A stretch of DNA of 64,000 nucleotides from Oegoconia quadripuncta. Lineage: Eukaryota; Arthropoda; Insecta; Lepidoptera; Autostichidae. The DNA lies in assembly GCA_949316235.1 (NCBI GenBank), contig OX438748.1:31862836-31926835 (forward strand). Direction: 5' to 3'. The notes beneath the pieces were generated by a model. It worked only from the letters and a program-made list of their open reading frames with translations. It had not been told where the DNA came from and did not search any database. This document shows positions 3,486-45,528 of this stretch, piece after piece (the first letter of the stretch is position 1; every line of letters begins with the position of its first letter). The position numbers and the translations under genes were made by a program.

Positions 3486-3577
3486 TTATTTATTTATCTT
3501 TATTATATTGATATATCAATTATTTATTTAATCTATACACTCTCTACCCAGCATCGCCTGAGACCGCATTTACTCAC

Positions 3578-3714
3578 GCGATCACCGCAGCGGCTGCATC
3601 CCTGTATATAGCGCGAGCCTGCCGCGACGGCCGCCTCTCCAGCTGTGGGTGCAGCCGTTCCCACCGCCCGAAGAACCTCCACTCGGACTGGGTATGGGCT
3701 GGGTGCGGCGTCGA
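3578..3714 (-). CDS. candidate orphan coding exon, GC-rich, unidentified
   Basis: On the - strand, a 137-base stretch is open in one frame (45 codons plus 2 bases). It is preceded by an acceptor ending TATTCCAAG (complement of 3715 onward) and followed by the strong donor GTGAGTAA (complement of 3570-3577). It is far more GC-rich than its AT-rich surroundings. The translation begins STPHPAHTQSEWRFFGRWER and is rich in Arg and Ala. I do not recognise the family. It could be an exon of a host gene on the opposite strand from Wnt5, or part of a decayed retroelement. No partner exon was found. Confidence 0.35.
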
Positions 3715-4250
3715 CTTGGAATATGGATACAGGTGAGGTTGATTATTATTAACACTAATATGCGAGTACTTTATGCACTATAGTCCAGTAAGGATACACG
3801 TTTAACTTCCTATAATCTTAAAGGCCGTGATTTTTGAACACGCGTAGAGTGCCTGCCAGTGATAGAATTACAAAAAATTCGAACAAATCGGTAGCTTGCT
3901 TTAGATATAATATATAGATTAGTATACTAATAAAACATAGATTAGGTGATTAAAATTACCCTGGGAATTTCATCGCGTCGGAGAATATGCTTAGAGAACC
4001 CTTGTAACTATTTTCAAAAAAAAATCCGATCAATAACTTCTTTACATTTATGCAAAATTTCACCGAGGGCAAATATCACGACTCAATAAACTATTTCTAG
4101 AAAATGTAAAGTGGCCATTGATTATTTTTTTTTAGAAAAATTGTTTTAGGAGTTGTTAGCATCTTCTACAAAACGCAATGAAGTTCACAGTGGTAACTTT
4201 AATTCAATATTGTAGGTTTCATAACTAATTACCTATACTATACCTAAAGT

Positions 4251-24948: not shown

Positions 24949-24975
24949 CTAGCCCTAAGTCTAGCTTTCACATCA

Positions 24976-24981
24976 TCTGTC
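24976..24981. repeat. left 6-bp target site duplication (TCTGTC)
   Basis: TCTGTC directly precedes the left terminal repeat and is repeated exactly at 32781-32786 directly after the right one. Six-base duplications are the rule for Mavericks/Polintons. Confidence 0.9.
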
Positions 24982-25400
24982 AGTAGTAATATTATTGGGA
25001 AGTCTGGATCAAAACCGATGTGGCTTGACCTCGCTCTGCTCGTTCCGTTCACTCGTTTCACTCGCTCACGTCAGCCACATCAGTTTTGATCCTGACTTTC
25101 CAATAATATTGGGTTTCCTAAACCGTCCAGTCCAGAAGTATTCTTAGATATTAGCACTCACCATTAAGTTGCAGCAACAGAAATGATCCATTCACTAATT
25201 TTGAACACTAAACTTTTTACTAACACTAAACTAAAATCATAGCAATGTGTATAACAAAGCATGCACTGTATCAAGACGTAATCAAATCCAAAGGTACTGA
25301 CAATGTATCTCGTCGAGACGAGCACATAACATTTACCATTTCGTATCCCAGTAAACTAGGCAATGTTATACCTTAGTACAAAACCATCTCATATACTTGA
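24982..25400 (+). repeat. left terminal inverted repeat of the Polinton
   Basis: It begins AGTAGTAATATTATTGGGAA. Within its first 130 bp it is itself an inverted repeat (arms about 24988-25030 and 25071-25110), enclosing a run rich in CTCGTTCCGTTCACTCG-like units. It has about 26 extra bases (near 25228-25253) compared with the right repeat. Confidence 0.9.
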
Positions 25401-25881
25401 AATAGCTTGCATCCCATCGAAACAGGCATTTAAGATAAACTACGAAATCCCCAGCTAGCTAGGGTAAGATAAATGTTCTACAAAGGAACCTTGAGTCTGA
25501 AACACTTCATGACTACAGCACAGACCTTTAAATACATCACTGGTTCTCCTCCGAAAATAACTAAATAAACACACCAAATTTCCGCGTTCCAGCCAGCTGG
25601 ACATCACGGACAGACCTTGGTCTGAATATCTGAATAAGTATGTACAATGTAGATATTTCCAGAGACCCTAACAACCACTTTGCTTCATTGTTACCTTAGG
25701 ACTAAAGACATATACTGCCTAGTATAGGATCCGATGCTAAAGGAATGTTTACACGATACAAATGTTATCGGTGTAGTTACCAGCACTTAAAGTGAATTAG
25801 ATAGATAGATAGATAAAGGATTTATTTGTTTCTCCAGTAACACATATACATTTAACTTTTAGGCACAATAACAATTGTAGA

Positions 25882-26134
25882 TAATAAATAAATAAATAAA
25901 TATCTTTATACACTTATAGCACATACTCACAGCGCCATATAGTCCACACTAAGCAACACAAATATATTTTTTTTTTTTTTGTGTAAATAAATACATATAT
26001 AAATGAAAAACATCCATATCTCGGGAACACATGTCTGTATTCATCATACAAACATATGCCTCTAGCGGGATTGGAACCCGCGACCCTTTGGTATAGCAGT
26101 CAGAGTTTCTAACCACTACACCAAACAGGTCGTC
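25882..26134 (-). mobile_element. SINE family S2 inside the Polinton
   Basis: The complement of S2 is full length: a TATTTATTTA-type tail at the left and the B-box complement GGATTGGAACCCGCGACCC and ACCACTACACCAAACAGGTC at the right. It shows that the Polinton has been resident long enough to collect SINEs. Confidence 0.85.
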
Positions 26135-26315
26135 AGATCGATACAATTACAGGATTATTAATAATGTGTGTGTTTGTGTTATTTTTGCTTTTCCATCCTA
26201 AGTATATTCTTAGAAGAAAATCGGTTTCAAGCCGATCGTAACGTATTTCGCATTGAAACATATTAAACAATTTGTGGTCCTAAAAAGGACCTTTTTAGTA
26301 TTTACAAATTTTAGA

Positions 26316-26522
26316 TTATTTACGAGGATTGCTACCTATATTCATATCGTCTAAGTCCATCAAACATGCTAGATATGGTTTAATATTGAATAAACAATAA
26401 AAACATGTCTTCAATCCATAAAATCTAGCATAACCACGTCTTCTTAAAGCTTCATTCATGAAGCACATTTCACACATTTTTTCATTATCTGGAATTTGAG
26501 ACATCTGTGTAACGTCCGTCAT
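26316..26522 (-). CDS. small ORF with paired cysteines, unidentified
   Basis: This 68-residue ORF on the - strand begins MTDVTQMSQIPDNEKMCEMC and has two CxxC pairs about 22 residues apart (CEMC and CFYC), as in small zinc-binding folds. It lies inside the Polinton, between two SINE copies. A CACAG acceptor-like sequence precedes the ATG. I do not recognise the family. It may be a scrap of an element gene or chance. Confidence 0.25.
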   Translation of the reverse strand: MTDVTQMSQIPDNEKMCEMCFMNEALRRRGYARFYGLKTCFYCLFNIKPYLACLMDLDDMNIGSNPRK

Positions 26523-26598
26523 GCTTGGAAGTCCTGTGTTAAGTAACTCATCTACGTGGCATTGGTCGTTTATAATACGATATCACATTATTAAAGAA

Positions 26599-26776
26599 AT
26601 AAATAAATTTATTAAATATCTTTGAACATACACACAAATACAATATTATTATTTATTTTTTTTGTAAATATATATGTGTCCATATTCATCATAAAATATA
26701 TGACCCTAGCGGGATTCGAACCTGCGACCTTTCAGTATAGAAATCAGACCTTCTACCCACTACACCAAACATGTTA
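26599..26776 (-). mobile_element. SINE family S2, internally deleted, inside the Polinton
   Basis: The complement of the S2 head (GGGATTCGAACCTGCGACCT, ACCCACTACACCAAACATG) is joined to a shortened body and an A/T tail. Confidence 0.75.
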
Positions 26777-27679
26777 GAGTGATAAGTATATCATATATAT
26801 TGATGACCTTTATCCCTAATGAGATGGCTAGATACATTCCAAACATTAACACGTTACGTTCTAAGTATACAGAAATGCACACGTGTCAGAGGGTAAGTCC
26901 ATCGCTCTTAAAACAAAAGTCAATAATCTTTTTGTAGATACACAGGGTACTCTTAAAATAGTCAGATTTTATATATTGTTATTTTTTTAAAGCTACATGT
27001 AATTACAAGTGTAAATAGGACCATATCGTTGCTGACGTATATTGCATTAGTGCAATAACGCATATTTACGAGTCAGCATTGATGGCAAGGCGGCGGCGCG
27101 GCGGTCGGCGGTATGTTAACGATACCACAACGGAAACTGATACTCGATACTTTCAATAGTTATGTATTGCATGTGGGTTTGCTTGCCTTTTAAACTATTT
27201 TTAGAATACATAATATAATGAATGGTGATATACTAAAAAAAGTAATTACGTTTTTGTGCTATTAATGCCATTTACGGAAAAATCCTACGGTAATATTTTA
27301 ATTTCGAAAATACCTTATTCGAGATTATTACTAAAGAGCTTATGGTATTAACCCGCAACCATTGATTGCGGATGCAGGACCATAACCCACTACAAATTGG
27401 CTCACCCATCCTGTTTTCAACTATACGGTTTATTGCTTTACTTTGACACTTGTGTTCATTATCGAATACAATTATTATACCACGAGCGTTGCACAATTAC
27501 TTAATATTTATAACAAACGTTACCTTTCTTTTCTCAGTTGGGTTAAAAAAATAATAATGATTACATTGCACTGAAATTGGAGACAATTGTTTGTTACTAC
27601 AATTTGCTGATTCAAATACCTTTAATATATGTGTTTGTGCTCTTCTATGTATGTGTTATGTACATACACGAAGGAAATA

Positions 27680-27917
27680 ATATATAAAAACTGATTTTCG
27701 CTTCGGAAAATTTAACAAGTTTTTCAACGTCACTGTCGCCGGAGCTCCGTCAAGCAGAACCCTCAACGTCACTGTCATCGGTGTTCGGTCAAGAAAAACC
27801 CTCAATCCTCCAGAACCTCAGCTCAAGTCGTACCAAGTGCGTCAGAATCCCTGATCTTCGAGAACCCTATTTGAAGTATACATTATACGGATCAAGTGCG
27901 TTGCTATAATGTTCGTA
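27680..27917 (+). promoter_or_regulatory. possible promoter and first exon of a Polinton-borne gene
   Basis: A TATA-like ATATATAAAAAC at about 27680-27691 precedes about 200 bp of non-AT-rich sequence containing repeated CAACGTCACTGTC and GTCAAG motifs. This leads to ATGTTC immediately followed by a consensus donor GTAAGTTTTT at about 27909-27918. This fits a short first exon (two codons) spliced to the exons at 28143 and 28671. The phase fits only if exon 2 begins at 28150 or if an exon is missed, so the link is inference. Confidence 0.35.
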
Positions 27918-28029
27918 AGTTTTTATAATATATTTCTTTTTTCGCAAAACAGATAAATTTTCGATACTCTTGTACAAGTCCCAGCCGTGTTCGATATACT
28001 TCAATCTTGATATCTATAACTTATTCTTT

Positions 28030-28115
28030 TAATGAAAACTCATTGGTATATGGCCTGCTTGGGAATCAAACCCAGACCTACCAAATTGGGAAACTGTGTC
28101 ACAATTGCCGATTAG
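28030..28115 (-). mobile_element. SINE family S4 head fragment
   Basis: AAACTCATTGGTATATGGCC and GGGAATCAAACCCAGACCTA are the complement of the S4 head. The fragment lies in an intron of the Polinton-borne gene. Confidence 0.6.
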
Positions 28116-28142
28116 TTAAACTTAATTATATTTATTTTTCAG

Positions 28143-28265
28143 GTCTGAGTCTGATTACTACAAGGAGCAGGTGGAGAAAAAACCAAAAAAGCACACAACA
28201 AAGCGAACAGCAGCGGCTGCATTAGAGTCTGATAGTTCCGACTACGAGCAGCCCCGTGACACCAG
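28143..28265 (+). CDS. internal exon of an unidentified spliced gene inside the Polinton
   Basis: The 123-base exon is bounded by the acceptor TTATTTTTCAG and the donor GTATCTT. It reads in one frame with one base at the start and two at the end, so it is phase-symmetric. The peptide begins SESDYYKEQVEKKPKKHTTK and is first basic (KKPKK, TTKR), then acidic near its end (ESDSSDYEQ). Such Lys/Ser/Asp-rich sequence suits a nuclear, disordered protein. The next exon has the same phase and layout. I do not recognise the protein. It may be a host gene piece captured by the transposon. Confidence 0.5.
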
Positions 28266-28670
28266 GTATCTTTTTTTTTCTTTTTTATTATTTCAGTTAA
28301 AATGTGAAAGGTACGGTCGCTTTTTTAAGTACAGTCATATTCGGGGGTTCAACTATTTAGAATTTGTTTCAAACCCGTTAATCAAGCGTTGAGTACATAC
28401 TATTCAAGCGGTACCTATTCAAAGTAGGTGTAGGTACTAATACACAAGAATCCAATCCATTTTTTCTTTATAAATTCTAAGGCGTTCTAAAATATTCGCC
28501 CACTCAGTAAAGTTATTCAAAAATACTTAGTTATCTTTTAACTGACTTTAAAAAAAGGAGGAGGTTCTCAATTCTGCCGTTTGTATTTTTTTTAAACGAG
28601 TATAATAGTATACATCGCAATTGTTTCTTTCTTTTTCTTTTTATATTTATTTCTTTTTCTTCTGTTTTAG

Positions 28671-28799
28671 CCCACCGCCGAAAAGGACTAAAGCCTCGGT
28701 CAAAAAGTTACCACCTACAAACAAGGAAACTAAGCGGGCACCGAAGGTGTCTGCAGAGGAGATTGAACACTCTGATGACGAGGGCCCCCAAGCTACTAG
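28671..28799 (+). CDS. second phase-symmetric exon of the unidentified gene
   Basis: The 129-base exon follows a long pyrimidine tract ending TTCTGTTTTAG and ends at the donor GTAATTT. It has the same 1+3n+2 structure as the exon at 28143-28265, so the two join in frame and either could be skipped without a shift. The peptide begins PPPKRTKASVKKLPPTNKET and ends with an acidic EHSDDEGPQAT stretch. It thus repeats the basic-then-acidic design and the final Thr-Ser/Arg split codon of the previous exon. The design suggests exon duplication. No further exon was found before the SINE at 28843. Confidence 0.5.
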
Positions 28800-28842
28800 G
28801 TAATTTACTTATTAATTTTCAGTTATATTTTGCAGCGTTTAA

Positions 28843-28925
28843 AAGCGCCAGTGGCTCAGTGGTTGAGATCTGGGTTCGAATCCCAGGCAGACCATGTACG
28901 AATGAGTTTTTAAATTTAATCTAAT
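28843..28925 (+). mobile_element. tRNA-derived SINE head, family S4, at the polymerase truncation point
   Basis: GCGCCAGTGGCTCAGTGGTT (A-box side) and GGGTTCGAATCCCAGGCAGA (B box) form a tRNA-like head, with the S4-type tail ATTACTTATTTGCATTTGTC after it. It ends about 45 bp before the first recognisable polymerase codon. Confidence 0.7.
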
Positions 28926-28968
28926 TACTTATTTGCATTTGTCCGACTGATCTTAAATGGTGAAGTAA

Positions 28969-29763
28969 TACTGCATTTTTGGAAAAACTTTGGAAGATAC
29001 AGAGCGTAGAGTTGATGTAAAGCTAGTAAACAGGTGGAACGATGATCGCAATAAAACAAAAAAGTATTATTGCGCTGAACAACTAATAGCACGTCCAAAT
29101 TTTCACAGTTCAACAATATTTGACGAGAATTTAGTTGCAATACAACTTAACCGAGAAAAAGTCGTTTTGGATAAACCAATCTATATAGGTTTTACAGTTT
29201 TAGAGTTATCTAAAAATCATATGTATGACTTTCACTATTCAGTAATGAAACGTTTTTATAATGAGAAGTTACATCTATGTTACACTGACACCGACAGTTT
29301 GTTGTATTTGATACAAACTGAAGATTTCTACAAAGATTTGAAATCCTCCTTTTTGGATTATTTTGATACTAGTAATTATTCAACAAATAATGTATTTAAA
29401 ATACTTCAAGCAAATAAGAAAATTCCTGGGCTATTTAAAGATGAATTAGGAGGAAACATTCTTTTAGAGTTTGTAGGGTTGAGATCAAAATTATATAGTA
29501 TTAAAACTAGTGATTATGAAATAAAGAAAGCCAAGGGAGTTAAAAAGTCGGTTGTGAAAAAATTGAAATTTTCTCAATATGTAGACGTCTTATCCAGTGG
29601 TAGGGAATTAAAAAGAAAAAATCTTTTTTTCAAATCAATAAAACATGAGATTTTTACTCAAGAGCAAAATAAGGTAGCGTTATCACGAAAAGATGATAAG
29701 CGATTCATTCTAAAAAATAATGTGGAAACTAAGTCTTGGGGGCACTACTCAGTAACAGTTTAG
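28969..29763 (+). pseudogene. protein-primed DNA polymerase B, C-terminal fragment (Polinton)
   Basis: The frame opens after a TAA at 28966-28968. Its first residues (..IFGKT..) match the conserved motif after the polymerase KxxxNSxYG helix. The palm catalytic motif YTDTDS is present at about residue 105 of this frame. The open frame runs about 264 codons to TAG. A complete family-B enzyme of this class is over 1000 residues, so the exonuclease, protein-priming insertions and the first catalytic motif are missing upstream, where a SINE lies. No ATG suits a start. In an intact Polinton this enzyme copies the element from a protein primer. Here it can only be a remnant, though the surviving frame is unbroken to its stop. 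Confidence 0.85.
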
Positions 29764-29769
29764 AGGTTA

Positions 29770-30431
29770 ATATAATATGAAACGGTAAATATTATGTTTG
29801 TGTAAAAACATTACATTGAATTCCTTGAGTAACTATTTTCGTTTGTAATAAAAACAAGATATATGATTTTTAATTGTTGAAATATTAGATAACAATAAAT
29901 ATGATATTTTTCTGTAAGAAGAATAATAAATGATTTTGAAAATTTTACAATTTCTCGAATTGTAACTATGTTTTGTTATTAATAAGACAAATTGATGCAA
30001 TTAAAGTAAAACGAAATATATGATTTTTAATTATTGAAATACTTGGCAAAAGATCATACTTGGATAATAATAATAATAAATATGATTTTGTAAAATGTTA
30101 CATTTTCCTCGAATTGTATGTCATATTATTTATAAGAAAAATTTTATGAACAATAAAAACATTGGTTTACAATTAGAATCCTAGTGTTTTATTTTTTTTT
30201 CAATATGAACCCATACCTATTATAGCGCTATTATATTATAGTGTTATTTTATAAAGTTTTAGCAGTATACATACGTGTGGTAGTGTTGTCCCTTTCGGGT
30301 ACACCTATAATAGTTGTAGCGTTGTTCCTTTTTCACTTGTTATGTACCAAGTGCTGAAGGTTGCACTTTGTAAAAATAGTAATAAGGTGCAATATTACAT
30401 GCTACAACTTTACACATACTTAAATAACAAT

Positions 30432-30473
<42 letters not shown>

Positions 30474-30570
30474 CTGAAGATCCGCAATCCAATAATTTAA
30501 CATGTTCAAACATGTGTGTAATACGAGTTGCATCGCATCAAATAAAATAGCTGTAACACTTCATTACCTC
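29770..30570. other. AT-rich non-coding part of the Polinton
   Basis: No ORF is seen. Near-duplicate blocks (for example ATATATGATTTTTAATTGTTG, about 29860, and ATATATGATTTTTAATTATTG, about 30017) point to a local tandem duplication of about 155 bp. An (AC)n microsatellite occupies about 30433-30468. Confidence 0.5.
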
Positions 30571-30640
30571 ATTGAAGGGCAAGCGAATCAGCCGCCACTC
30601 TTTTACAAAAATAAATAAATATAGTTTTAACCATTTCATC

Positions 30641-31048
30641 ATGTATAATGGAACGTCAATCGATTCTGACATTATTTGTTTGGGACATGGTCAAGATCTA
30701 CTAGCGAACTTCAGCCAAGACTACCCAGAACTGGCAAATAAGCCTCTTCCAGATATTAACGAGAGGAAGAAGACCGAAATTATAAAGGTGAAAAAATTGA
30801 AAAGTCTTCAGAAAAAGAAAAACAAATTTGTAGCGTCGTACGTTAAGACAAATAATGACAATATTGGACGCAGGATGATCAAGATAAAGGTATTTGAATC
30901 TGCTGAAATAACCGACTGTGAAAATGATGGTGATGGTGCTGTGATAAGTGCTCAATATACAGTGGTAGATCAATACGATGAAATTATGGACCTGACTCAG
31001 ACTTTGATAAGTAAAATTTCGAAAAAAATATGTGATAATAGTTTATAA
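30641..31048 (+). CDS. unidentified Polinton ORF, 135 aa
   Basis: The first ATG of the frame is at 30641, beginning MYNGTSIDSDIICLGHGQDL. The frame is open further upstream without an ATG. A Lys-rich basic stretch lies mid-protein (KKTEIIKVKKLKSLQKKKNK) and the C-terminal third is acidic. No signal peptide or membrane segment is visible. AATAAA motifs follow within about 70 bp. It is convergent with the - strand block at 31213-32136. I do not recognise it; Polintons carry several poorly conserved small genes, so this may be one, or the C-terminal part of a larger lost gene. Confidence 0.5.
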   Translation: MYNGTSIDSDIICLGHGQDLLANFSQDYPELANKPLPDINERKKTEIIKVKKLKSLQKKKNKFVASYVKTNNDNIGRRMIKIKVFESAEITDCENDGDGAVISAQYTVVDQYDEIMDLTQTLISKISKKICDNSL

Positions 31049-31212
31049 GTAAATGTAATATTTAAGTTGCTTAGATAATAATGTAATGTAAATGTAATAA
31101 TTTATAATATTGAAATAAAACTAACTATTAAAATAAATAAAACTTCTTTATTTTATCCTTATTATAATTGAACTCTTACAAATATACCTTACAAATATTC
31201 AAAAGAATTTAT

Positions 31213-31692
31213 TTAATTGTTGTCGTTAAACCATTTTTTAATACAAATAACATTTTTTTGTGCACAACACTTATTATGATGAAAACAATTCAAATTCAAG
31301 TCATTTTTACAATAATTTGCATACAAATTTAAAAATTTTGGACATCCTTTCTCACCTAAATCTACAATGTTGAAATTATTACACAAATCGAAAAGCCATT
31401 TCCTTTTTTCGTTACCTTTAATAAAAATATTTTTACCAGATAGTACTGGTACGATCAACCTCTTAAATTCTCTGTAATCAATAAAACCCTCAGACCAAAA
31501 GATTCCTCTATTTCGTTCTATCCACCTCACTTGATTTTTTTCTTTGTATGATAATTGCGAATACGTAAATGGTGGTTTAATTAAAAATACTTGAGTGAAT
31601 TCTGAGGTAGCCAGAGCAAACTCTTTGAGTATAAAATTATTTTTATCATCTTTGAATCCTTGAACATCCACAAATAAATCATTTGTCTTCAT
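31213..31692 (-). CDS. conserved Polinton-associated ORF, 159 aa, function unknown
   Basis: The - strand ORF starts MKTNDLFVDVQGFKDDKNNF and has a Cys/His-rich C-terminus (CKNDLNLNCFHHNKCC) suggesting metal binding. The opening LFVDVQGF resembles the first acidic strand of RNase H/DnaQ-like folds, which is only a suggestion. Its ATG overlaps the stop of the upstream ORF by four bases (ATGA at 31689-31692), a compact arrangement typical of viral or Polinton gene blocks. Proteins starting this way recur beside polymerase B genes in insect mobile elements, as far as I recall. The frame is intact, with an AATAAA complement just downstream near 31144. Confidence 0.55.
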   Translation of the reverse strand: MKTNDLFVDVQGFKDDKNNFILKEFALATSEFTQVFLIKPPFTYSQLSYKEKNQVRWIERNRGIFWSEGFIDYREFKRLIVPVLSGKNIFIKGNEKRKWLFDLCNNFNIVDLGEKGCPKFLNLYANYCKNDLNLNCFHHNKCCAQKNVICIKKWFNDNN

Positions 31693-31877
31693 GATATTTT
31701 TCGTACAATGTTGCTTAGAGGTTTATATTCAAAAATACAGTCGTTTAAAATTAAACAGTAAGCTGATGTTTGATCTGGGATAACTACATCCGTTTCTAGT
31801 TCAATCCTAACATCAACAGAGCCTTTTGTTTTTAAATTGTCTACTTGATGTACCTTTGTGTACCTGTCGATACACAT
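31689..31877 (-). pseudogene. C-terminal fragment of a Polinton structural-type protein
   Basis: This short frame (62 codons) continues from within the ATPase-like fragment in another frame. It reads KTKGSVDVRIELETDV and TSAYCLILNDCIFEYKPLS before its stop. A beta-strand-rich stretch ending this way, just before the LFVDVQGF ORF, fits the tail of a capsid-like protein, but I cannot prove the identity. It looks like the remaining end of a larger gene after an internal deletion. Confidence 0.4.
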
Positions 31878-32136
31878 TTTCTAAAAATAAGTACTTTGGT
31901 TGATAAAGTGTCTTGGAATAGAGGTATACATTTCGATATCTTAAACCGTTTTCATGCAATAGCAAGCCTACCATTAAATTAGTTTTTCCGCAGTTAGAAG
32001 GCCCAGAAATAATGCAACGAATGGTACTAGGTAAAAGTGTCCCATGACGATGTGAAGTCTTTTGAAGCGAATCTGGACAAATTCTTTCTAATTGCAATGA
32101 ACATGGTTGTTTAATAAATTTCATATCGTAACACAA
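31813..32136 (-). pseudogene. packaging-ATPase-like fragment with Walker A motif
   Basis: The - strand frame starts MCYDMKFIKQPCSLQLERIC and has a clear P-loop GPSNCGKTNLM at about residues 45-55, followed by VYLYSKTLYQPKYLF. This fits the N-terminal part of the A32/FtsK-like genome-packaging ATPase found in Polintons. The frame ends after 107 codons with no Walker B region, where it runs into the structural-type fragment in another frame. This is best explained by an internal deletion that joined the two genes. It is not functional as it stands. Confidence 0.6.
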
Positions 32137-32388
32137 AACAGAAATAATTTTATAAAAACTATTCGTGTCAACGTTTCAGTGATAATTAAAATTTTCCTAC
32201 AAATGTTTGTCTTTTATATAATTATCATGTAGAGCAGAAGCCGACGGACATTTTGCAGTAAGTACTTTGTAGGGAAAACTTACATATTGTTAAATAGAAA
32301 CCAACCGAACGATCTGTCAAATAATTTATTAGGTTACAAGAACTTTAAATAACAATGAATAGTATGGGGATCAAAAACCAGATAACCT

Positions 32389-32780
32389 TCAAGTAAGTAT
32401 ATGAGATGGTTTTGTATTAAGGTATAACCCTGGGATACGAAATGGTAAATGTTATGTGCTCGTCTCGACGAGATACATTGTCAGTACCTTTGGATTTGAT
32501 TACGTCTTGATACAGTGCATGCTTTAAGTTTAGTGTTAGTAAAAAACTTTAGTGTTCAAAATTAGTGAAAATAGATCATTTCTGTTGCAGCAGCTTAATG
32601 GTGAGTGCTAATATCTAAGAATACTTCTGGACTGGACGGCTTAGGTAACCCAATATTATTGGAAAGTCAGGATCAAAACTGATGTGGCTGACGTGAGCGA
32701 GTGAAACGAGTGAACGGAACGAGCAGAGCGAGGTCAAGCCACATCGGTTTTGATCCAGACTTCCCAATAATATTACTACT
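32389..32780 (-). repeat. right terminal inverted repeat of the Polinton
   Basis: This is the reverse complement of 24982-25400 at high identity, ending ..AATAATATTACTACT. Its last bases abut TCTGTC and then the Wnt5 splice acceptor CACTCAG, so it now forms intronic sequence next to an exon. Confidence 0.9.
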
Positions 32781-32792
32781 TCTGTCACTCAG
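32781..32792 (+). promoter_or_regulatory. Wnt5 3' splice site, Polinton target duplication plus CACTCAG
   Basis: TCTGTC (second target duplication) followed by ACTCAG ends the intron at 32792. The original intron end is preserved before the left repeat as CTAGCTTTCACATCA+TCTGTC. Only these 12 bases of native acceptor remain in place; everything upstream now belongs to the transposon. Confidence 0.8.
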
Positions 32793-32904
32793 ATTCACGG
32801 AAGGCTTCGTGGACATCCGGGAGCGCGAGAGGAAGGTGAAGAGGGGCAGCCGCGAGCAAGGACGCCAACTCATGAATCGACATAACAACGAAGCTGGCAG
32901 GAGG
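32793..32904 (+). CDS. Wnt5: Wnt5, internal coding exon (visible exon 1 of 4)
   Basis: This is an exon of a secreted cysteine-rich Wnt ligand that signals through Frizzled or Ryk/Derailed receptors. The 112-base exon (one base, then 37 codons) encodes [20 protein letters not shown] and then a segment ending [18 protein letters not shown] with a basic insert, and the [11 protein letters not shown] block, are typical of Wnt5 rather than Wnt7 or Wnt4. It ends in phase 0 at the donor GTAAGA. The preceding exon, which must supply two bases of the split codon, is not found in the window. The acceptor lies 12 bp from a Polinton. Confidence 0.9.
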
Positions 32905-35152: not shown

Positions 35153-35255
35153 GCTGTAATAAAGAAATCTAGGGTCACCTGCAAGTGTCACGGTGTCTCA
35201 GGGTCCTGCAGCCTCATCACCTGCTGGCAGCAACTAGCCTCGTTGAGAGAGATTG
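35153..35255 (+). CDS. Wnt5: Wnt5, exon with the lipid-acylated serine motif (exon 2 of 4)
   Basis: The 103-base exon (34 codons plus one base) begins [20 protein letters not shown] and ends [22 protein letters not shown] is the invariant Wnt thumb loop whose serine receives palmitoleate from Porcupine, which is needed for secretion and Frizzled binding. SLITCWQQL agrees with the Wnt5-type SLKTCWLQL. Acceptor TTTGTTTCAG and donor GTGAGT are good. It starts in phase 0, which matches the upstream exon, and ends after one base of a Gly codon completed at 42036. Confidence 0.95.
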
Positions 35256-42035: not shown

Positions 42036-42193
42036 GTGATTACCTGAGAGACAAGTATGAAGGAGCGACAGAGGTGAAGGTATCGCGGCGAGGCAAGCTG
42101 CGCTTGAGTGACACCCACTACAGCATTCCCACTGCACAGGATCTAGTGTACCTGGAGGAATCGCCAAATTACTGCGTGAGGAATGACACTATA
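42036..42193 (+). CDS. Wnt5: Wnt5, exon 3 of 4 (C-terminal half)
   Basis: The 158-base exon completes the split Gly codon and encodes DYLRDKYEGATEVKVSRRGK and then TAQDLVYLEESPNYCVRNDT. The order KEKYD..-RGKL-..-TTQDLVYIDPSPDYCVRN is that of vertebrate and insect Wnt5. The acceptor is TTTTTATTTACAG, after a poly(A)/T-rich tract, and the donor is GTACGT. It ends in phase 0, matching the start of the terminal exon. Two Cys-poor segments between the thumb and the C-terminal domain are of normal length. Confidence 0.95.
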
Positions 42194-43290: not shown

Positions 43291-43488
43291 GGCTCTAAGG
43301 GTACGTCGGGACGCGAATGCAACAGAACTTCATCAGGCATGGATGGGTGTTCGCTAATGTGCTGCGGGCGCGGCTACAACACCAAGCGGCGAGTGGTGAG
43401 AGAGCGCTGCCGGTGCAAGTTCCACTGGTGCTGCCGCGTCGAATGCGATACTTGCATGCGAACTGAAGAGATCTACACCTGCAAATAG
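43291..43488 (+). CDS. Wnt5: Wnt5, terminal exon with stop codon (exon 4 of 4)
   Basis: The exon follows TTATTTATTTTCAG and encodes 65 residues then TAG. It begins [20 protein letters not shown], then [33 protein letters not shown] and TEEIYTCK. This is the Wnt C-terminal cysteine-rich domain. [13 protein letters not shown] and CKFHWCC are invariant Wnt signatures that form the disulfide-stabilised finger touching Frizzled, and the protein ends in the canonical CK. All expected cysteines of this segment appear present. The 3' untranslated region follows and contains a tandem repeat, a decayed exon copy and a mariner. Confidence 0.95.
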
Positions 43489-43994: not shown

Positions 43995-45068
43995 TTATTC
44001 ATCTAAATTTATTTTATCGCCTTCAAAGTAGGCCCCATCGCTTGCAATACAACATCTCCACCGCTTCACCCAGTCTTCCATACATTTTTCATAGGCTATT
44101 TGCGGTATGGCCTTTAGCTCATTCAGCGAATTTTCTTTTATGGCTTCTATCGACTCAAAACGTTTTCCTCGAAGTGGTAATTTTAACTTGGGAAATAAAA
44201 AAAAGTCAGACGGAGCCATATCAGGTGAATACGGTGCTTGGTCGAGAACTTTTGTTGAATTTTTCGCTAAAAACTCTTTCACTATAATGGCTGTGTGTGA
44301 TGGTGCATTATCATGGTGCAGCATCCATGAGTTGTCTTGCCACAAATCTGGACGTTTTCGGCGGATACTCTCACGCAAACGCTTCATGACGCCTAAATAA
44401 TATTCTTTATTCACTGTTTCTCCCTCTGGAAGGAATTCGGAGTGAACCACACCACGGTAGTCAAAAAAAACTGTCAGCATCACCTTGATTTTGGAGCGAC
44501 TTTGCCGCGGTTTTTTGGGTTTCGGCTGGTTTTCGAGACGCCATTCTGAAGACTGTTGGCTTGTTTGCATGTCGTACTCATAAACCCATGTCTCGTCGCC
44601 AGTTATTATACGTTTCATAAAGGTCGGATCCGTAGAAGCTCGGGAAACCATGTCTTCAGCGACATGCTTTCGCTGCGCTTTTTGAACAAAATTGAGCTCT
44701 TTTGGAACTAGTCGAGCGGCGATGCGTTTCATGCCTAAAATGTCAATGAGAATGTTGTGGACGGACTTAAAAGATATATTCACCTCACTAGCCAACTCTC
44801 TCAGACTCATACGTCGATTTTCGAGCACTAGCTTCTTGATTCTGTCGATGTTTTCTTTGGTCGTAGCGGTTGAAGGTCTACCAGAACGAGGCAAGTCTAC
44901 TACTACTTCTCGGCCTTCTTTAAAAGCCTTATACCATTCATAAGCCCTTGTTTTCGATATACACGATTCGCCGTAGGTATTTCGCAACATTTTTAGTGAT
45001 TCACCACATAAAATATCATTTGAAACACAAAATTTAAGGCACACTCTTTGTTCAACAATATTTTCCAT
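43995..45068 (-). CDS. mariner transposase, intact, DD34D
   Basis: The 357-residue protein starts MENIVEQRVCLKFCVSNDIL and has the expected length for a mariner transposase (about 345-360). Residues 1-115 carry two helix-turn-helix units for TIR binding, joined by a GRPS linker at 63-66. The catalytic triad is D158 (TGDETW), D253 (HHDNAPSHT) and D288 (YSPDMAPSDFF), with exactly 34 residues between the last two, which defines mariners. The usual WVPHEL linker is LVPKEL at 120-125. There is no stop, frameshift or missing catalytic residue, so it may encode active enzyme that cuts and pastes the element at TA sites. I did not assign the subfamily. Confidence 0.95.
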   Translation of the reverse strand: MENIVEQRVCLKFCVSNDILCGESLKMLRNTYGESCISKTRAYEWYKAFKEGREVVVDLPRSGRPSTATTKENIDRIKKLVLENRRMSLRELASEVNISFKSVHNILIDILGMKRIAARLVPKELNFVQKAQRKHVAEDMVSRASTDPTFMKRIITGDETWVYEYDMQTSQQSSEWRLENQPKPKKPRQSRSKIKVMLTVFFDYRGVVHSEFLPEGETVNKEYYLGVMKRLRESIRRKRPDLWQDNSWMLHHDNAPSHTAIIVKEFLAKNSTKVLDQAPYSPDMAPSDFFLFPKLKLPLRGKRFESIEAIKENSLNELKAIPQIAYEKCMEDWVKRWRCCIASDGAYFEGDKINLDE

Positions 45069-45528
45069 TGTAAAAATCGCCGAGGACTCAAAACTATGAC
45101 CAACAAAAAGTGTAGTTTAAAACAAATTAAATGACAGATCCCGCTCAAATTTTGCGCGCTAAATCAGTACAGTGCTACCAACATGCAGTAAAAAAATTAG
45201 AACGACCTCTTTTACGCGGGTCTTTTTATTGACATATTCCCGATACTTTTTACACAGAGTAGTAAATCGCCACAGAGCTTTCCAAAAGTCTCCATGAATG
45301 TAGCTAGAGAGTCAATGGAGATTATTGGAAGTTCAGTGATATTTTACTTACTTCCTGGACAACTATGAACATCCAAAGTTGTTACAAATCATAAATTAGA
45401 TTATAATCCCCTATATTTTCAACATATGTATCGAATCTGAAAAGAAGTCGTCAGGAAAATTGTTATTTTAATGTACCTAAATAACATTTTAATAAAAAAA
45501 TTTCTCCACAACAACACAAATAGTTTTA

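Follow-up and report, generated by a model that had tools for sequence, protein, structure and literature searches.

Our analysis identifies a young Polinton, a virus-like transposon, in a 64-kb window of the Oegoconia quadripuncta genome (contig OX438748.1), inserted 12 nt upstream of an exon of Wnt5, a developmental signal, between positions -13 and -12 of the splice acceptor at the 3' end of the intron. All coordinates given here are positions in this window, and Wnt5 lies on the + strand. The insertion with its 6-bp target site duplication, the family of sibling elements, two internal deletions relative to one sibling and the recency of the event are direct observations. Judging from the site itself, we infer that splicing at the same AG continues. 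The explanation we favor, with somewhat better than even confidence, is that the acceptor was partly rebuilt, that the same AG is still spliced and that the Wnt5 protein is unchanged. We thus have a large DNA transposon inside an acceptor, known in full sequence and with an estimated age, at a site that still looks usable, so that Wnt5 may have withstood an insertion of a kind that would ordinarily disrupt a gene.

The Polinton occupies positions 24982-32780 (7,799 bp), begins with AGTAGTAA, ends with TTACTACT (AGTAGT...ACTACT) and is framed by two copies of TCTGTC (24976-24981 and 32781-32786). The right copy is followed by ACTCAG (32787-32792, +), the end of the intron including the acceptor AG, and then by the exon at 32793. 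The former upstream part of the acceptor region, CTAGCTTTCACATCA (24961-24975, +), now lies beyond the element, 7.8 kb from the exon. A first-pass annotation of this DNA had already proposed the Polinton identity, the TCTGTC duplication, the adjoining ACTCAG and exon, the displaced upstream tract and the assignment of the exon to Wnt5; the first four are read directly or follow from the ends, repeats and siblings described here, and the fifth is borne out by exon order, phases and best matches. The left terminal inverted repeat (24982-25398, +, 417 nt, palindrome included) starts with AGTAGT and the right one (32395-32780, -, 386 nt) ends with ACTACT. The two agree at 374 of 383 aligned bases with 4 gaps, and the outermost 133 bases are identical, so that the difference of about 2% plus indels is confined to the part inside them. 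Left-right differences, at least those in the outer 211 bases, recur in the siblings; therefore movement of the element does not make the two repeats fully alike. Each terminal repeat also contains a palindrome (24988-25110 and 32652-32774) with 38-nt arms that are 92% complementary. Such terminal palindromes are unusual, and one may ask whether they have a role in replication priming or end marking.

The insertion is confirmed as real and not a product of chance, because the same repeat ends recur at seven further places in the genome and all six readable ones carry perfect 6-bp duplications. According to PMC8097293, the 6-bp duplication defines Polinton/Maverick elements, and it is present in the window copy (6/6), in the siblings with both ends (6/6) and in a related family (4/4; three duplications were found by script and one, CGCAGG, by eye). 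The same source gives the ends of vertebrate Mavericks as (AGT)2//(ACT)2 or (AG)3//(CT)3, and the window copy has AGTAGT...ACTACT. A phage collection yielded no match to the Polinton repeat. In the 622.6-Mb assembly (45 contigs; all element counts are lower bounds), at least seven further elements of 17.8-18.2 kb share the terminal repeat. Six of them have both ends, with perfect duplications that are all different, and the seventh is without its outer right end; across the seven, the left repeat shows 1 difference in 211 nt. The related family comprises four copies, with ends 75% similar. The siblings fall within the Polinton size of 15-20 kb stated in PMC4028283, and the window copy falls short of it at 7.8 kb because of its two internal deletions.

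The family has been mobile recently. Two pairs of siblings on different chromosomes are identical or nearly so over 1.7 kb (0 differences in 1,711 positions, and 0 in 1,709 with one gap), and therefore these Polintons moved not long ago. The window copy itself is also recent. An alignment of the left 1,711 nt of eight copies has 1,320 columns free of gaps, and substitutions private to the window copy occur in 2 of them (0.15%; 95% interval 0.02-0.55%), together with a private 2-nt gap and a 1-nt insertion; pairwise, this copy differs from the siblings at 4-18 positions in this stretch, and from sibling C4 at 14 of 4,263 in three further pieces. With a rate of 2.9e-9 substitutions per site and generation this corresponds to about 0.5 million generations (0.06-1.9 million); the figure is an upper bound, because the private changes may in part be older than the insertion. 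Dating by left versus right repeat (0.024) was rejected, as siblings share the same difference and it is hence no clock, and so was dating by nested repeats, as the left stretch with both repeats is common to the siblings.

Five Wnt5 exons follow in order on the + strand with matching phases and consensus acceptors: 3552-3732 (donor TACAG|GTGAGG, phase 2), the 112-nt exon downstream of the insertion (32793-32904), 35153-35255, 42036-42193 and the last exon with the stop (43291-43488). With ten proteins as queries, no Wnt5 exon was found 5' of 3552 in the window. The 189 aa encoded by the last four exons have Wnt-5 proteins or unnamed Wnts as best relatives (794 of 833 candidates, 120 listed; the search admits lengths of 0.55-1.75 times the query, which a full-length Wnt5 would escape). 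Among the matches listed, Tuta absoluta (87%) stands at the top and a Leptidea sinapis Wnt-5b-like protein reaches 78%, so the closest named Wnt matches suggest Lepidoptera. Comparison with the Protein Data Bank (PDB) places Wnt-5a first (243.9 bits versus 195.1 for Wnt-3a). By its sequence, the exon at 32793-32904 is part of Wnt5. The intron 3733-32792 measures 29,060 nt, is of phase 2 and consists of the Polinton in its final 7.8 kb. The exon part of the query matched one place in the assembly (40 of 1,171 candidates were scored, and the other 39 matches start in a downstream repeat), and no second allele of the insertion site was among these 40 scored candidates. In the exon 3552-3732 the protein reads WAGC where WGGC is usual (five comparators also have the alanine in this column) and PETAF where RETAF is usual. 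Decay of the Wnt5 protein was considered and rejected, as odd residues are not in excess: 3 of 85 for the whole protein of the window, inside the range of 0-9 found in 18 listed comparators.

What the insertion did to the acceptor can be modelled from both states of the site. The modelled empty site is ..CTAAGTCTAGCTTTCACATCATCTGTCACTCAG|ATTCAC and the occupied site ..CCAATAATATTACTACTTCTGTCACTCAG|ATTCAC; an ancestral empty allele would be expected to read ..CACATCATCTGTCACTCAG between the same flanks. Twelve bases, TCTGTCACTCAG, remain at the exon thanks to the duplication, which restores six of the twelve; only sequence upstream of -12 is displaced. The Polinton end (..AATATTACTACT) forms the new upstream tract and scores no worse than the old one: under a simple consensus, untrained on this genome, the occupied acceptor scores 3.87 and the empty one 2.09. 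The first-pass annotation spoke of a split working acceptor, which is right anatomically but doubtful functionally, since the 12 bases stay and the Polinton end brings the higher score. By the same consensus the other four Wnt5 acceptors score 3.35, 2.23, 8.30 and 6.53, and of 1,379 intronic AGs 23 reach the occupied level and 65 the empty level. Upstream, the closest AG is the one at -34; its score is 1.24, and it falls within the palindrome of the right repeat (32652-32774, +), a predicted RNA hairpin that ends 18 nt before the exon (-67.1 kcal/mol, z -6.40, 0 of 200 shuffles as strong). Of three modelled outcomes, only use of the present AG keeps the frame; skipping of the 112-nt exon and use of the AG at -34 both shift it and lead to early stops.

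A continued use of this AG could proceed in the following way. The duplication would rebuild TCTGTC before ACTCAG, and the terminal ATTACTACT of the Polinton would take over from the lost upstream tract; the (ACT)2 end motif gives rise to this terminal ATTACTACT, and since the repeat is an inverted one, an insertion in the opposite orientation would have supplied it as well. The hairpin would sequester the competing AG at -34 while the true AG stays accessible. Transposon sequence would then make up part of the intron's 3' end, and the Wnt5 protein would be as before.

Several points weigh against this explanation. The consensus behind the acceptor scores is a simple one without training on this genome, and the gain of 1.8 units is small. 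Branch-point motifs are uninformative (a random 52-nt stretch of the intron contains 3.3 of them on average, and a perfect one occurs in 69% of such stretches), and the empty site had in TTCAC at -18 a better match than the occupied site has in ATTAC at -18. The effect of the hairpin could go either way, to hinder or to help splicing. The upstream Wnt5 exon has unusual residues (R3P and D54V), although their number in the protein stays within the range of the comparators. The intact Wnt5 frame is no evidence, because the insertion is too young for decay.

The strongest of the alternatives is less probable but still a serious one: the insertion may weaken or kill the acceptor, so that carriers make little full-length Wnt5 from an allele that persists as a rare or heterozygous young one. 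The recency of the insertion is in keeping with this, since there may have been too little time for selection. The site has lost its earlier branch-point candidate TTCAC and its upstream tract, and it has a competing AG at -34 and a strong hairpin whose end is 18 nt from the exon. Any failure at the AG would have grave consequences, as neither modelled alternative preserves the frame. The scores speak against this reading: what is left of the acceptor does no worse than the empty site and better than two of the four other Wnt5 acceptors in the window.

We consider it improbable that the inverted repeats pair in the pre-mRNA and fold the 7.8 kb away, in which case the original branch point and tract (24961-24981) would serve the AG across the base of the stem. 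The computed duplex is long and stable (375 inter-strand pairs, -672.3 kcal/mol versus -91.3 and -116.9 for the repeats singly) and paired to the very ends. However, local hairpins form first during RNA synthesis, an RNA duplex of nearly 400 bp would invite editing or cleavage, and a linear model suffices without such a step. RTCB-dependent SOS splicing, which would cut out the transposon RNA before or instead of ordinary splicing, is highly unlikely: the long inverted repeats suit this pathway and it is described for animals in a review (PMC13247085), but for transposons left in mRNAs. No support was found for an assembly artefact joining unrelated stretches, an equally far-fetched idea given the exact element ends, the exact duplication, the seven structurally matching siblings and the agreement of the Wnt5 exon phases across the intron.

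Nothing here suggests that Polintons seek acceptors. By the same consensus score there is no acceptor-like AG beside the siblings (0/7): within 40 nt of their outer flanks no AG has a score above 1.15, be it on the left or on the right (six right flanks, one of them without an AG in reach, and seven left flanks). Targeting thus finds no support in the sibling flanks, the set to which this comparison was confined. The chance expectation for an insertion into an acceptor is about 0.014 for 8 copies and 0.07 for 40 copies (15,000 genes with 6 introns assumed), and one such case is therefore not astonishing.

The window copy is a doubly deleted element. A piecewise comparison with sibling C4 shows that about 4,041 bp are gone before 28974, with 1-bp microhomology (junction 28973-28974). 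A second loss, of about 6,046 bp, falls between 31848 and 31860, where an 11-nt filler is found (31849-31859). The filler holds GTACCT, which is also present in the adjacent kept sequence, and resembles the outcome of end-joining with templated insertion. Among the eight copies, no other was seen to carry this copy's deletion. The polymerase lost its N-terminal part to the first deletion; the second removed most of the packaging ATPase and capsid genes, of which stumps are left. Two copies of a tRNA-like dispersed repeat, probably a short interspersed element (SINE), lie within the sibling-shared stretch (25975-26135 and a second, diverged copy at 26677-26774), and another dispersed repeat (28865-28968) lies in the left segment that the copy has in common with sibling C4. 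Mobilisation of a broken copy together with its nested repeats was rejected, since the left stretch with both repeats is common to the siblings, and an interruption of the polymerase by the repeat 28865-28968 was given up in favor of the deletion relative to sibling C4.

What remains of the polymerase is a C-terminal piece of family B type (28973-29763, +; YTDTDSLLY, KKAKGVKK). Of 4,240 candidates, 3,792 proved to be relatives; some are named DNA polymerase, and PF03175 is present on 3 of the 120 listed. The piece occurs at no fewer than 40 places in the genome (247 candidates, 40 scored; siblings 97-99%, lowest 67%). For the piece itself nothing matched in Pfam, PHROG or the PDB, the only match of a sibling's 700-aa frame was to endonuclease VII and below threshold, and viral contig scans with the piece and two alignments confirmed no relative. 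A frame at 31689-31880 (-) holds the C-terminal stump of a double jelly-roll capsid protein (PF21738, E 3.4e-7; the shared sequence ends at 31848), for which sibling C4 gives 4.1e-73; many Polintons carry such a protein according to PMC6431247. The N-terminal stump of the packaging ATPase (31860-32175, -; GPSNCGKT), cut by the second deletion, is by itself below the Pfam cut-off, and a 247-aa frame of sibling C4 matches PF04665 (Pox_A32) at 4.5e-6 and 26.8 bits (cut-off 22.8). Neither a retroviral-type (RVE) integrase nor a cysteine protease was matched in 27 frame pieces of the window copy and 5 of a sibling, of which about 7 kb lay outside the integrase scan. An open frame of 163 aa (30557-31048, +) has a counterpart of the same length at the matching place in sibling C4. 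Two short frames (28126-28392 and 28609-28803, +) have similar acidic ends (SSDYEQPRDTR and HSDDEGPQATR) and look exon-like with AG/GT flanks. Between the last Wnt5 exon and the window end, a 373-aa open frame (43995-45116, -) may encode a mariner-type transposase, to judge from its likeness to one.

The element also carries an intact gene for a protein of about 159 aa (31213-31692, -) with 87 relatives among 96 candidates. Its predicted structure (pLDDT, the per-residue confidence, 85) shows a DEDD-nuclease fold, nearest to DinG, DnaQ, the arenavirus nucleoprotein exonuclease and Maelstrom. All 15 aligned members (the window protein and 14 of the 87) retain the first D, have Q in the place of its acidic partner and share an invariant E/C/H/C set; the D-to-E spacing of 15 and the C-x2-H motif match D122, N124, E137, C290 and H293 of Bombyx Maelstrom. 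No Pfam Maelstrom match was obtained for any of the 15. The MAEL domain (PMC4408791) combines a DEDD-nuclease fold with ECHC zinc residues. The Polinton protein resembles it in the fold, the kept first D, the replaced second acidic residue, the strand-2 E at spacing 15, the C-x2-H and a further C, and differs from it in a C-to-C spacing of 7 instead of 12 and in being without the HMG box. The product looks like a catalytically dead, zinc-stabilised RNA-binding module. A Maelstrom-like gene on a Polinton raises the question of interference with RNA silencing, and a protein acting against silencing is speculation on our part.

A wider and rather doubtful reading is that each Polinton end acts as half of a 3' splice site that the element carries with it, as both end motifs, (ACT)2 or (CT)3, are pyrimidine-rich towards the flank in either orientation: after a landing just upstream of an AG they might replace the tract and branch region, while the duplication rebuilds the last bases and the palindrome hides competing AGs. 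If true, Polinton insertions would be tolerated at acceptors where other transposons would be lethal, and introns with transposon-derived 3' ends would accumulate over time. As the insertion is young, empty and occupied alleles may coexist in one population, which would allow a direct measurement of how a transposon end influences the choice of 3' splice site. The siblings in turn show that this Polinton family was mobile not long ago, as left ends are identical between copies on different chromosomes.

Compared with known systems, the element agrees with Polinton/Maverick transposons in its 6-bp duplications, long inverted repeats, (AGT)2//(ACT)2 ends and family B polymerase piece and, in a sibling, in the packaging ATPase and double jelly-roll capsid genes. 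It departs from them in the reduced size of the doubly deleted window copy, in that no integrase or protease was found in the scanned pieces and in the palindrome within each repeat. Among literature search titles we noticed no report of a Polinton within a splice acceptor, which shows little. Transposons supplying splice signals are known, for example, from the exonization of antisense L1 and Alu. As in these cases, transposon sequence here joins a 3' splice region; in contrast to them, the AG and the last 12 nt are host sequence or its duplicate, the Polinton end replaces the upstream part only, and no new exon arises. SOS splicing (Zhao et al., cited in PMC13247085) is described as removing transposon RNA in animals and shares with our case an inverted-repeat transposon RNA within a gene, whereas the Wnt5 insertion is intronic and needs no special excision.

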